Virus record (IMG/VR): IMGVR_UViG_3300029952_000097
Location: 1 to 30,612 of that record
Strand: one strand, 5' to 3'
DNA length: 30,612 nt
DNA from: a virus
In this document: in pieces, positions 419 through 15,832 of the stretch
How the letters are laid out: each line of letters begins with the position of its first letter
Numbering within the stretch: the stretch's first letter is position 1
The notes under the pieces: model-generated
Database searches by the model: none
Told to the model about the DNA's origin: nothing
The model's input: only the letters and a program-made list of their open reading frames with translations
Program-made: the position numbers and the translations under genes

Positions 419-563
419 TTAACCGCCTTAATCTTTCTTTGTAACGTTTCTCTAAGTATTTGTTTAAATATTCTAAACTTATATATGCCAATCCTATTAC
501 TATCATTAACAAACTTAAATATAGCCAGGCGTGTACAAGCAATGATGTTAACTCGTCGTCCAT
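405..563 (-). CDS. Small single-span membrane protein, 52 aa
   Basis: A 52-codon frame starts at ATG 563, whose first base is the last base of the RusA stop codon (TAATG, typical of translational coupling). It ends at TAA 405, 14 nt inside the terminase gene. The product has a hydrophobic stretch at about residues 13-30 (WLYLSLLMIVIGLAYISL) followed by a strongly basic tail rich in K and R. That suggests one membrane span with a positive cytoplasmic end. Function is unknown. Its tight packing between two recognised genes supports it as real. Confidence 0.6.
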   Translation of the reverse strand: MDDELTSLLVHAWLYLSLLMIVIGLAYISLEYLNKYLEKRYKERLRRLNGQR

Positions 564-946
564 TATTTTTCCTCTGTTAACTTAATAGTTAAAGTAATTC
601 CAGGAGTTTTTGAGTACTGTTTACGTAGTGTTAAGTTATCAATCAATCTATCATCAGTAAAGAGTATGCCATTCGCCGCGTCTAGTATTGCTTTAGCGTA
701 GTTATCAATATCGCCGATCGGAGTTGGCCAAGTGCTTTTAGTGCTACTTTTAAGTTTAGGTAAACGGATATCTATTAATATAGTGACAGCCTCATTTAAA
801 GGAGGAAGTCTGCACTGAATAAAGAGAAAGTTCTTTAACTTTTGCTCGTATTCTCTAGTTCTTTTAGGCGTATATCCTATTCCCGCTTTAGTAACCCTAG
901 GTCTACCTTTGGGAATAGGAACAATATCTAACGTATAAATTTGCAC
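563..946 (-). CDS. rusA: RusA-like Holliday junction resolvase
   Basis: This 127-aa protein matches the size and pattern of RusA endonucleases, which cut Holliday junctions and branched phage DNA, often just before packaging. Near the start is PIPKGRPR (residues 10-17). The acidic block is GDIDNYAKAILDAANG (78-93) with FTDDRLID (96-103), giving the family's conserved aspartates and lysine. The start is GTG at 946, five bases behind AGGAG. An ATG at 948 is in another frame. It is the first gene of the leftward RusA-52aa-terminase operon, which fits a role in resolving concatemers for packaging. Confidence 0.88.
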   Translation of the reverse strand: MQIYTLDIVPIPKGRPRVTKAGIGYTPKRTREYEQKLKNFLFIQCRLPPLNEAVTILIDIRLPKLKSSTKSTWPTPIGDIDNYAKAILDAANGILFTDDRLIDNLTLRKQYSKTPGITLTIKLTEEK

Positions 947-4314: not shown

Positions 4315-4647
4315 ATGTCGTTTTCAATTCCCCCTTTTTGGGCGCTGATGGGTTTAATTGCGTTCGGTTCGCATTTTTTCCTATATGCTTTGTATGCAGG
4401 AATAGCTATTTTAGCACTAAAGTTGGCAGCATTCTTGTACAATAAAAAACCCACTAAAACTTTCCTATTCGTGAAGGACATTTGTTCTTCCGTGAATAAG
4501 TTTTTGTCATCCAGGGGTGTGACGATCGTTTGTACTGCATTATGGACATCACTACTTGTCTATATGTTCGTAACATCATTCGGAGAACCTATCTGCCTAT
4601 GTTACGCGATTATGTTAATTTGTCCTTTAGCTTCATTTTTACCATAG
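4315..4647 (+). CDS. Multi-span membrane protein, holin candidate
   Basis: This 110-aa protein follows the endolysin by 23 bases, with GGAGG before the ATG. Hydrophobic segments cover about residues 8-42 (one long or two short spans), 67-90 and 92-108, separated by a basic loop (NKKPTKTF). Size, membrane content and position next to the endolysin make it the best holin candidate here. Holins share little sequence, so this rests on context and hydrophobicity only. Confidence 0.5.
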   Translation: MSFSIPPFWALMGLIAFGSHFFLYALYAGIAILALKLAAFLYNKKPTKTFLFVKDICSSVNKFLSSRGVTIVCTALWTSLLVYMFVTSFGEPICLCYAIMLICPLASFLP

Positions 4648-4672
4648 TCAAAGAAAAAATAAGGAGTCGAAG

Positions 4673-5684: not shown

Positions 5685-5713
5685 TTACCTAACAACCAGA
5701 AGGAAATGATTCC

Positions 5714-6628
5714 ATGTCTTCGCAACTATCTCCGGAACAAAGATCTTTGAATGGTGGTCGTTCTCTCAATGCCATCTGGGATTCCCCTCGTCTTGACTGC
5801 TATGAAAAATTGTTTCTACAATTTCTAGGATCGTGTGCTGATTTCAGTGGCGATTTTACAGACTTCAGTTTCCACTCCCTCAAAAAATTAGAAGAAGCTA
5901 CAAGCCTTTCCCGACGCAAACTCCTCTACGTGGCCAAAGATTTAGAAGAAAAAAGCTATATACTGCGCGAAAAAAGATTCTTCGTTCAAGACAATACTAA
6001 AGCTCCTTCCAACTATTCACTGACTAAAAAAATATTCGATGAGTACATCCTAATTCTTAGAGAACGGGATGCTAAGAAAGCTCAAGATGGTGCACAGTAT
6101 GCACCAGGTAGTGCACAGTATGCACCAGGTAGTGCACAGTATGCACTAGGGGTAGTGCACAGCGTGCACGAGGGTAGTGCACAGCGTGCACATGATCTCC
6201 CCCAACAGACTTCCCCCATTTCGAATTCCCCCAGTCTTTCTTTAAACCCACCCTTGGTGGCTTCCAAAGTTGAGAAAACTGAAGGTAGTAAAATTTGGGA
6301 TGCTTATAAGGAAGCCTATGAAAGAAGATATCGAGTAGCACCTGTTCGAAACGCCAAGACTAACTCTCAATGCGCTAGTCTACACAAACGCCTAGGGGAA
6401 AATGCTGTTGAGGTAATAACTTTCTATCTTACTCATAATGCCCAGAAGTACGTAGCTAACTGTCATCCTATAGGCTTCGCTCTATCAGATGCCGAATCTT
6501 TGAATACACAAATGTTGAATGGAAAAGCCGTCACTCACAAAGATGCTGTAAACGTAGATAAACGACAGACCACCATGAATTCCCTAGAAAGAGCCCTTGA
6601 GCTTATGAGAGGGAAAAGTAATGGATGA
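5714..6628 (+). CDS. Lambda O-like replication initiator
   Basis: The 304-aa protein has an N-terminal winged-helix region (residues 20-95, with YEKLFLQFLGSC and LEEATSLSRRKLLYVAKDLE) like phage O-type initiators. A repeat-bearing linker (126-159, AQYAPGS units) and a low-complexity P/S stretch follow. The C-terminal helical domain starts at KIWDAYKEAYERR (about 194). Its gene contains five origin-like iterons, as lambda O contains the lambda origin. The next gene overlaps by eight bases and is P-like. It probably binds the iterons and recruits a helicase loader. The initiator call rests on architecture and context rather than a certain family match. Confidence 0.7.
   Translation: MSSQLSPEQRSLNGGRSLNAIWDSPRLDCYEKLFLQFLGSCADFSGDFTDFSFHSLKKLEEATSLSRRKLLYVAKDLEEKSYILREKRFFVQDNTKAPSNYSLTKKIFDEYILILRERDAKKAQDGAQYAPGSAQYAPGSAQYALGVVHSVHEGSAQRAHDLPQQTSPISNSPSLSLNPPLVASKVEKTEGSKIWDAYKEAYERRYRVAPVRNAKTNSQCASLHKRLGENAVEVITFYLTHNAQKYVANCHPIGFALSDAESLNTQMLNGKAVTHKDAVNVDKRQTTMNSLERALELMRGKSNG
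6090..6191 (+). repeat. Five-copy iteron cluster, candidate replication origin
   Basis: Five 15-base units GTGCA-N5-TGCAC start at 6090, 6111, 6132, 6155 and 6177. Each is itself a dyad. The first three have CAGTA in the middle and the last two CAGCG. Spacings are 21, 21, 23 and 22 bases, about two helical turns. Copy 4 lies in a different reading frame from the others and copy 5 returns to the first frame. The repeat is therefore kept at DNA level and not as a protein repeat. This matches origin iterons inside an initiator gene. Confidence 0.72.
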
Positions 6629-7142
6629 AAAGTACAAAGAAAGGATAATCAAAGGGTTGTACTGCTTAGCAGATATCACTGACAAAGAGCTATCTCCCGA
6701 AATAGCCAATATCTATGCCAGTAAGATAGCTCGCATTCCTCAGGAAACATTACTGTCCGTCCTCAATGAATGCTTGTCTTCAGAATCACGTTTTCCAACT
6801 ATATCTAGAATATTTGAGCTGTGCGGGGTGCCGTCGCACAAATCATTAGCCGAAAGTGAAGTGAACAATATCATCTCACAAATCATGGCCGCAGCCCAAA
6901 AAGGCCATCAGAATGTAAAAGAAAAGGATATGTCACCTACTGCATGGCAAGTAGCCAGAGAGTATGGGGGTTTCTACAAAGTTTGTTATGAGCCTGACAA
7001 TTATCTTCAAAAAAATTTACAAAATATCGCAAAAGAGATTATCAGGAAAAGAGATGAGAAGAAGCAAATAGAAAGTGCTCCGTCGGAATCTAGAGGACTA
7101 CAGTCAGCCAAAGATGTTCTCAAGCTAGTCACAGGACAATAG
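6621..7142 (+). CDS. P-like helicase loader candidate, 173 aa
   Basis: It overlaps the O-like gene by eight bases (ATGGATGA). Residues 20-75 hold DKELSPEIANIYASKIARIP and then FPTISRIFELCG. That resembles the N-terminal helical domain of phage helicase loaders such as lambda P and SPP1 G39P, where several helices are followed by a conserved FPT motif. The middle has TAWQVAREYGGFYKVCY and the C-terminus is charged. Synteny (initiator then loader) is the strongest argument. The likely role is loading the host DnaB helicase, since no phage helicase is seen in the window. Confidence 0.55.
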   Translation: MDEKYKERIIKGLYCLADITDKELSPEIANIYASKIARIPQETLLSVLNECLSSESRFPTISRIFELCGVPSHKSLAESEVNNIISQIMAAAQKGHQNVKEKDMSPTAWQVAREYGGFYKVCYEPDNYLQKNLQNIAKEIIRKRDEKKQIESAPSESRGLQSAKDVLKLVTGQ

Positions 7143-7152
7143 GAACGACAAA

Positions 7153-7181
7153 AAAGCTCTCTTGTAGGTCAAGAAAGCTTT
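7153..7181 (-). terminator. Leftward terminator-like hairpin
   Basis: AAAGCTCTCTTG (7153-7164) and CAAGAAAGCTTT (7170-7181) form a 12-bp stem with one mismatch and a five-base loop. On the leftward transcript the stem is followed by TTTTTTG. On the rightward transcript no U tract follows beyond the stem. It lies just after the P-like gene, antisense to the late operon's read-through path. Confidence 0.5.
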
Positions 7182-7214
7182 CAACGAAATCATCATCAGA
7201 AAGGATGAGATATT

Positions 7215-10316: not shown

Positions 10317-10327
10317 CTCTCAAATCC

Positions 10328-10453
10328 TTATTTTTTCTTTGACATCTTTTCTTTCATCATTTTCATTTTCTCTTTATGCTTCGCTTCCATTTCTTTCATC
10401 TTCTCTTTGTGAGCGTGCATCTTCCCTTTTTCTTTATCCATTTTCTTTTCCAT
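10328..10453 (-). CDS. Tiny Lys/Met/Glu-rich protein, 41 aa
   Basis: An ATG at 10453 stands six bases behind AAGGAG and opens a 41-codon frame ending at TAA 10328. The composition is almost only K, E, M and H (for example KMKEMEAKHKEKMKMMKEKM), forming a single charged helix. The strong ribosome site and late-operon spacing argue for a real gene. The extreme composition could also be low-complexity chance. Confidence 0.5.
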   Translation of the reverse strand: MEKKMDKEKGKMHAHKEKMKEMEAKHKEKMKMMKEKMSKKK

Positions 10454-14179: not shown

Positions 14180-15832
14180 TTACCCCAGTAGGTTTATAGT
14201 GAAGAAGCCAGAGGTCATGTCGCTAGTTACAGATGGATATCTGCGAATGGCTACACGTGTACTCGCTGCAATAGCAAGTCTTGCTTCTATACCGCCCGGA
14301 GGCACAACAAGTTGCACAACTTCGGAGCCAGCAGTACCAGTTGCTAATTCAAGAATAGATCCTGAACCATTGAAAATGCTTACCCATGAAACAGCAGCGG
14401 TCGTTGAGGCAAAAAGCTGAACATAAGCTGCCGATGTGATGTTCGTAGAGGAAGTATCCAAAGCTAAAAAGTTCTGAATGGCTAGTCCGCCCAGCGATGT
14501 ATTTATACCGCCGGTTGTAGAGACTGAGATTTCACGGTGGGTAGTTCCGTCCCAGCCCATCGCTAAACCAGCTTCGACGGGTACTGCGGTAGCGGTTGAT
14601 TGGGTGAACTGAGCCGCTGTAATTGCTCCGCTACTAAAGTTATTTGTGCCGTTACCAAGTTGCACAGATACTGGATTTGTAACACCGACTGCTGTGCTTC
14701 CGATACCGAGCATTGCAGCCGTTCTAAGAGTTGAGCTTCCTGGATTTCCATAGTTCGTATCCAAAGTTGTAGGAAAGTTCGAAGAAGCTACATTCACAAC
14801 TCCGGTTGTAGAAACCGAAATTTCTCTGTGCGTAGTTCCGTCCCAGCCCATCGCTAAACCAGCTTCGACGGGGACCGCTGTAGCCGTAGATTGTGTGAAT
14901 TGTGCCGCGGTGATTGCCGCACTTGTGAAACTGTTGGTTCCATTTCCTGGCTCAACGAAGACTGGATTTGTTACGGATACAGCAGTTGCGCCCATTCCCA
15001 GCATTGACGCCGTGCGCAACGTGCTTGCTGTAGGTGCGCCGTAGTTAGTATCGCTTGTCGTGGGCAATGAGGAGACCGTGACAGGTACTGCAGACTGGTT
15101 ACTGGCAATGGCAACCGATAATGACGCTGCCATTGTGGTTTGGCCGAGAGCCGCTGGCAATTGTGAACTCGAAGGGGCGTTGTATGTCGTCGCTCCATTG
15201 GATAACTCCACAAAAACGGGGTTAGTCGCTGAGACCGCTGTTGAACCCATACCGAGCATGCTTGCGGTTCTTAAAGTGCTGCTTGTAGGAGCGCCGTAGT
15301 TGGTATCTGAAGTCGTTGGTAAAGAAGAAACTGTGACAGGTATTGCACTTTGGTTAGATGCAATAACTACGCCCAAACTATTCGCTTCTGTCTGTTGCCC
15401 CAAAGCTGCAGGAAATTGAGCTGTTGTGGGTGCATTATATGAAGTAGTTCCATTGCTCAACTCGACGTTTATCGGAGTTGAAGGGGTGGTGGCGAATGTT
15501 ACCGGTAAAGTACTTTGGTTACTGGCGATGGCAACCGGTAAACTCGCTGCCATGGTGGTTTGGCCAAGGGCTGCGGGGAGCTGGGACGCTGTGTTTGTAT
15601 TGTATGTACCCGCTCCATTAGACAACTCAACGAAGAGCGGAGTTGTGACTGTGTCTGATAGAAGCACTGGAACAGGAGTTTGGTCTGATGCAATAACAAC
15701 CGGAAGGCTGTTTGCCATCGTTTGCTGACCCTCGACGATCGGAGCCCCGTTACTGTCTTCGATTCTCACTGTCGTGGCAATGCCGCCATTATATACGGTC
15801 GGTGGCCAGTTAAAGTCAGCCATATTAGCCAC
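14180..15832 (-). CDS. Repeat-rich tail protein, 550 aa
   Basis: The protein is built of tandem modules. The N-terminal two thirds repeats LP-VVIASNQS-PV, then P-LSNG-T-YN-P, then Q-PAALGQTTMAASL about every 50-70 residues, with TSDTNYG and STLRTASMLGMGSTAV inserts. Further on, a 97-residue unit (QFTQSTATAVPVEAGLAMGW, then THREISVSTTG) occurs twice. The last 100 residues form a distinct beta domain ending FFTINLLG. Such IASNQS-type repeats are common in phage tail proteins. It overlaps the upstream gene by eight bases. Confidence 0.65.
   Translation of the reverse strand: MANMADFNWPPTVYNGGIATTVRIEDSNGAPIVEGQQTMANSLPVVIASDQTPVPVLLSDTVTTPLFVELSNGAGTYNTNTASQLPAALGQTTMAASLPVAIASNQSTLPVTFATTPSTPINVELSNGTTSYNAPTTAQFPAALGQQTEANSLGVVIASNQSAIPVTVSSLPTTSDTNYGAPTSSTLRTASMLGMGSTAVSATNPVFVELSNGATTYNAPSSSQLPAALGQTTMAASLSVAIASNQSAVPVTVSSLPTTSDTNYGAPTASTLRTASMLGMGATAVSVTNPVFVEPGNGTNSFTSAAITAAQFTQSTATAVPVEAGLAMGWDGTTHREISVSTTGVVNVASSNFPTTLDTNYGNPGSSTLRTAAMLGIGSTAVGVTNPVSVQLGNGTNNFSSGAITAAQFTQSTATAVPVEAGLAMGWDGTTHREISVSTTGGINTSLGGLAIQNFLALDTSSTNITSAAYVQLFASTTAAVSWVSIFNGSGSILELATGTAGSEVVQLVVPPGGIEARLAIAASTRVAIRRYPSVTSDMTSGFFTINLLG
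14541..14872 (-). repeat. Two 41-nt identical direct repeats, period 291
   Basis: An identical 41-base block lies at 14541-14581 and 14832-14872, exactly 291 bases (97 codons) apart, inside the repeat-rich tail gene. Flanking sequence is also similar but diverged at silent positions. This points to a fairly recent or gene-converted internal duplication. Confidence 0.85.

Follow-up and report, generated by a model that had tools for sequence, protein, structure and literature searches.

The window analyzed here spans an entire virus record in IMG/VR and is 30,612 bases long. Its early genes on the plus strand include those for an annealing protein (Erf), SSB, and an endolysin, and a minus-strand block from ∼7.8 kb onward contains the structural genes. 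The window also contains an O-like initiator gene with five dyadic repeats (iterons) in its coding sequence, followed by an overlapping gene for a predicted helicase loader (Table 1). Contigs of other metagenomes in IMG/VR (L225–L228) match its late region at 85–99.98% identity, indicating that this type of phage recurs; the replication region is present in none of them. No O-like genes were found in contigs with the same capsid gene, these records being fragments.

Three further repeats were noted in the window. An imperfect inverted repeat at 1052–1098 (TGCCACAGTGCATCAATGATG / CAACACTGTTGCACTGTGGCA) extends over a TTGACA box in front of the early rightward genes and is operator-like; it contains GTGCA and TGCAC half-sites 23 bp apart. 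A 222-bp direct repeat (14501–15013, 74% identical, spacing 291) is located in a minus-strand ORF of 550 amino acids (14180–15832). Finally, a 24-nt sequence is found at 4647–4670 and again, in inverted orientation, at 10320–10343 (92% complementary).

Table 1. Features of the window, with the basis for each assignment
Feature	Position	Strand	Basis or remark
RusA resolvase gene	563–946	-	left end
O-like replication initiator gene, 304 aa, holds the array	5714–6628	+	ORF; PHROG 270, PHROG 11527, annotated relatives
Winged-helix DNA-binding domain segment, residues 17–138	5762–6127	+	AlphaFold2; MarR-type matches, Z ∼9–11
Weakest 50-mer in initiator gene, candidate unwinding element	6011–6060		just upstream of the array; nearest-neighbour energy
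Array of five dyadic iterons	6090–6191	+	exact pattern GTGCA-N5-TGCAC; spacings 21, 21, 23, 22
Iteron 1, GTGCACAGTATGCAC	6090–6104	+	codon phase 1
Iteron 2, GTGCACAGTATGCAC	6111–6125	+	codon phase 1
Iteron 3, GTGCACAGTATGCAC	6132–6146	+	codon phase 1; dyad reaches 7-bp arms
Iteron 4, GTGCACAGCGTGCAC	6155–6169	+	codon phase 0, out of register
Iteron 5, GTGCACAGCGTGCAC	6177–6191	+	codon phase 1
Linker segment, residues 128–190	6095–6283	+	low-confidence AlphaFold2; contains nearly all iterons and the second array
Second direct-repeat array, 3 × TYCCCCCA at 6197, 6211, 6226	6197–6233	+	spacings 14, 15; p 0.02 versus shuffles
C-terminal helical domain segment, residues 191–304	6284–6625	+	common to Pseudomonas, Erwinia, Serratia, Synechococcus phage initiators
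Predicted helicase loader, 173 aa, overlaps initiator gene	6621–7142	+	placed like lambda P or SPP1 39; fold match

The gene that hosts the repeats had been called O-like in the initial annotation. This assignment is supported by matches to PHROG 270 (replication initiation protein, E 1.5e-5) and, for the C terminus, PHROG 11527 (E 2e-16), by the winged helix in the AlphaFold2 model, and by homologous phage initiators. The winged-helix N terminus matches the HTH_36/PHROG 270 initiator family at the profile level; Pfam HTH_36 itself matches the initiator of the window weakly (0.018, below the cut-off) and is strong in the N-terminal relatives L142, L147, and L217. In the model, a long helix (residues 105–127) may provide dimer contacts. 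The linker exhibits a pLDDT mostly below 50 at residues 136–176 and no secondary structure throughout residues 128–190, and it is probably disordered. The C-terminal domain is 26–40% identical to the initiators of the Pseudomonas phages Riah, LESphi3, and D14E, the Erwinia phage Pavtok, the Serratia phage Parlo, and the Synechococcus phage Ssp-JY37; one annotated C-terminal relative is labeled replication initiation protein O. Neither hhalign nor blastp gave convincing sequence homology to lambda O, and PHROG 277 (the Lambda O family) did not match the initiator of the window, whereas it does match lambda O itself. The RepA_N Pfam domain was likewise not matched.

Homologues of the downstream gene occupy the same position in relatives. 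By sequence, its product had no match in annotated phages or in the PDB. Its structural model, however, superposes with the phage helicase loaders G39P from SPP1 (PDB code 1no1; Z 7.0, rmsd 2.2 over 62 of 67 residues) and P from lambda (PDB code 9oa1; Z 6.8, rmsd 8.3 over 137). For a helical protein, a Z of ∼7 is moderate evidence for a loader fold, strengthened by the fact that these two loaders are the best matches of 473 chains.

The repeats had originally been described as five GTGCA-N5-TGCAC units, and all five proved to be exact, at the coordinates and spacings claimed for them. Their core is even tighter than that pattern, with GTGCACAG-[TA/CG]-TGCAC in 5/5 copies. There is no sixth exact copy elsewhere in the 30,612-base record, and dinucleotide shuffles of the whole window contained 0.025 exact sites on average and never more than 1. 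The same array is present in a 99.99% identical stretch of a second contig (IMGVR_UViG_3300029914_000127), which argues against an assembly error. The five copies probably arose by tandem duplication.

Such repeats might serve the protein rather than the DNA, as an Ala/Gln/Gly linker peptide expanded by slippage, with the DNA similarity being a by-product. Copies 1–3 indeed encode a nearly identical peptide (GAQYAPGSAQYAPGSAQYAL), and the array segment encodes a disordered linker. However, the fourth copy is out of the codon frame, to which the fifth returns, just as the initial annotation had pointed out, and its dyad is still exact. When synonymous codons were redrawn according to the codon usage of the phage itself while keeping the peptide, 0, 1, or 2 sites were obtained, but never five (20,000 trials). 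The probability of an iteron under such a redraw is 0.004–0.022 per site, values that are not independent of each other because of the probable tandem duplication. Moreover, 94 distinct GTGCA-type arrays from other phages and prophages, among the matches listed, show spacings of mostly 21–24 bp, and all spacings below 30 bp are distributed 63/60/56 over the three classes modulo 3, so they lack codon periodicity. Codon phases, redraws, and spacings together bear out the earlier claim that the array is selected at the DNA level; the repeats are conserved as DNA and not as peptide. An origin by slippage of a functional linker peptide is already largely refuted, and we give it almost no weight.

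Comparison with relatives revealed arrays of 2–7 copies at the same position of the gene. Linker repeat arrays are found in 6/6 annotated phage relatives that share the C terminus, all with sequences that differ from those of the window; the array of Riah, for example, comprises seven copies with spacings of 17, 17, 17, 21, 23, and 22. In 58 of 76 C-terminal relatives, the direct repeats of the linker exceed those of codon-shuffled controls (∼4 expected), an upper figure for iterons because some of these repeats are low-complexity tracts; the remaining 18 of the 76 lack a significant linker array by this comparison. A detector for N5 dyads was positive in only 18/76, many of the relatives' repeats being imperfect dyads.

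The iterons of the window were also traced independently of any protein. Viral and genome contigs were scanned blindly for a tandem pair of GTGCA-N5-TGCAC units, which returned at least 128 loci. In 107 of the 128 loci among the matches listed, the array is located inside an O-like winged-helix initiator ORF, compared with 6 O-like winged-helix matches among the 1194 other ORFs of the same listed loci. The remaining loci include several initiator ORFs that are cut by a contig end. Although the second-round profile was partly trained on scan matches, the first-round profile alone found 99 of the listed loci, and four loci that were checked (L093, L095, L142, and L147) independently matched PHROG replication-initiation families. 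One locus with the exact iteron pattern, L094, was set aside as an unrelated collagen-like repeat gene. The tandem GTGCA-N5-TGCAC unit thus offers a simple DNA pattern for finding putative intragenic origins across many phages and prophages.

Which part of the initiator reads the iterons is suggested by co-variation in a set of 33 C-terminal relatives whose arrays are clear. The more alike their N termini, the more alike their iterons, also when the C terminus is controlled for (partial r 0.49, Mantel permutation p 0.001); with C-terminal identity, the N terminus being controlled for, the value is 0.08. The N terminus of the window's initiator has 14 detectable neighbors in the pooled set, and 14/14 belong to the GTGCA class. 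One of its N-terminal neighbors, the Alkaliphilus locus L221, even shows the same run of spacings (21, 23, 22). The C terminus, in contrast, is nearest to phages with other iterons. Locus L093 combines the same iteron with an initiator that has a different C terminus and with a DnaC-like loader. These sequence relationships are most simply read as binding of the iterons by the N-terminal domain and a joint transfer of domain and iterons as a single unit.

The initiator of the window is therefore likely a natural chimera, into which the DNA-binding domain and its sites appear to have been swapped together from another phage family. A precedent for such a swap is plasmid pPR9, where a PF13730 domain and its origin replaced those of a pSK41-like rep gene (PMC5703833). 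Because the sites adjoin the domain that would read them, both could move together between phages, and because the array encodes a probably unstructured linker, the protein would tolerate whatever the DNA sites dictate, so that a site can change frame. We tentatively extend this to a more general proposal, which we hold at slightly less than even odds: DNA-binding domain and embedded iterons may constitute an autonomous specificity cassette, exchanged between replication modules of phages that are otherwise unrelated. Here, a cassette of a class also found in Bacillota genomes would have been joined to a C-terminal domain and loader of the Pseudomonas/cyanophage type, and the usual AT-rich opening element would have been replaced by a pyrimidine-rich repeat tract. 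The co-variation of iterons and winged helices provides material for studying the pairing of residues with the bases they read, and the ways in which phages switch replicon specificity.

Co-variation also bears on the idea that the array is bound by some other host or phage factor, for instance as a partition or incompatibility site that lies in the gene by chance. Iteron arrays can act in plasmid copy control. However, an unrelated factor would not explain why the iteron sequence co-varies with the N-terminal domain of the initiator, and we consider this explanation very unlikely.

The tract directly downstream of the iterons is not AT-rich but 70% pyrimidine over 60 bp, and over the 40 bp adjoining the array the AT content lies 7–12 points below that of the gene. 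In 85 relatives, the corresponding segment averages 13 points more AT, and lambda is AT-rich as well. The TYCCCCCA array in this tract occupies the place of unwinding-element repeats. Following the iterons, short repeats of at least three copies with a period of 10–22 are found in 40% of 83 nonredundant relatives versus 0.8% of control segments. The unit spacings of this second array in relatives fall into the classes 0, 1, and 2 modulo 3 with counts of 32, 11, and 30, so a peptide-level constraint may contribute to it. As the unwinding elements of oriC, plasmids, and lambda are known to contain repeats (PMC10797057), the second array is likely their counterpart and not a new element. Its presence behind the iterons in so many relatives suggests a common opening element that is worth testing. 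Strand asymmetry downstream of the array was not above that elsewhere in 100 relatives (Wilcoxon p 0.12), which indicates that the pyrimidine tract of the window does not reflect a general asymmetry of this sort.

Two related observations were made in other loci. In L097–L214, the 70 bp downstream of the GTGCA iterons frequently contain GAACCAGTCA or AACAATA-type repeats, a candidate common strand-opening motif. The initiator linkers of L013–L091 show that many C-terminal relatives have short tandem tracts after their iterons, such as CTGATTC with a 7-bp period, which cross the frame. On the other side of the array, the weak stretch at 6011–6060 has a nearest-neighbour energy of −55.8, compared with a mean of −64.3 over 5700–7200, and could serve as the unwinding element.

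We interpret the array as the initiator-binding part of a replication origin of the lambda/SPP1 type, embedded in a tailed phage's initiator gene, and assign this reading, which is based on sequence comparison, a probability of roughly 0.86. Dimers of the winged-helix domain would bind each dyadic iteron, and five such dimers, spaced about two helical turns apart, would build a nucleoprotein complex that melts a neighboring segment, either the repeat tract at 6197–6233 or, on the upstream side, the weak stretch at 6011–6060. The C-terminal domain would then recruit the product of the next gene, the predicted helicase loader, which in turn would deliver the replicative helicase of the host, so that the host polymerase can carry out theta replication.

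One check proposed in the initial annotation did not come out in favor of an origin at this site. GC skew has no turning point at the array and instead tracks the strand of the genes. Because the record is of uncertain completeness, another origin could lie outside it. The repeats might also represent an operator inside the gene, at which the initiator would control the transcription of the operon it belongs to. Such a role would suit the MarR-like winged-helix domain, a fold whose repressors bind dyads. However, five phased copies in the middle of a gene, ∼376 bp downstream of the start codon, do not correspond to an operator layout, and relatives carry 2–7 copies at the equivalent position, with short repeats behind them that resemble those of known origin unwinding elements. 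We therefore regard an operator as very unlikely and favor the origin, which represents a testable candidate for an otherwise unclassified phage.

The initial annotation had further stated that the arrangement mirrors the lambda origin within gene O, with a different iteron sequence. This holds for the dyad geometry, the crossing of the codon frame, and the unrelated iteron sequence, but homology to lambda O is not detected, and the AT-rich tract directly downstream of the iterons is absent. Lambda possesses four annotated iterons, dyads of the TCCCTC-N5-GAGGGA type with spacings of 20, 24, and 23, that cross the codon frame. As proposed for the window, the lambda origin lies within the initiator gene, and its dyads likewise have a 5-bp center; a DNA-binding N terminus, a flexible linker, and a loader-binding C terminus are followed by the loader gene (PMC6022878, PMC5043065), an order also predicted for the window. 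Each iteron is bound by a dimer of lambda O, which opens an AT-rich tract of 40 bp (PMC5043065).

In SPP1, oriL is located within gene 38, and the helicase loader gp39 acts together with gp38 (PMC6316719). By description, the window resembles SPP1, where origin repeats lie in the gene of the origin-binding protein and a loader (G39P, PDB code 1NO1) acts with it (PMC6316719); the downstream product of the window is predicted to have the G39P fold. SPP1, however, also possesses a second origin and encodes a helicase of its own, gp40; neither is seen in the record.

In the RepA_N plasmid pSK41, repeats in the middle of rep encode a dispensable linker and are read by a winged-helix N terminus, and in pPR9 the N-terminal domain and origin have been replaced with a phage-like Pfam PF13730 domain (PMC5703833), the type of swap proposed for the window. 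These are plasmids of Gram-positive bacteria, though, and the C-terminal domain of the pSK41 protein binds the primase DnaG, whereas the initiator of the window has no RepA_N match. The iterons of plasmids such as RK2, F, and P1 as a rule lie outside the rep coding region. They too are found beside a strand-opening element with short repeats (PMC10797057), but they bind monomers (PMC5043065), whereas the sites of the window are dyads within a gene. The kind of object described here is already known; its novelty lies in the class of iteron, in the apparently chimeric initiator, and in the unusual tract that follows the array.
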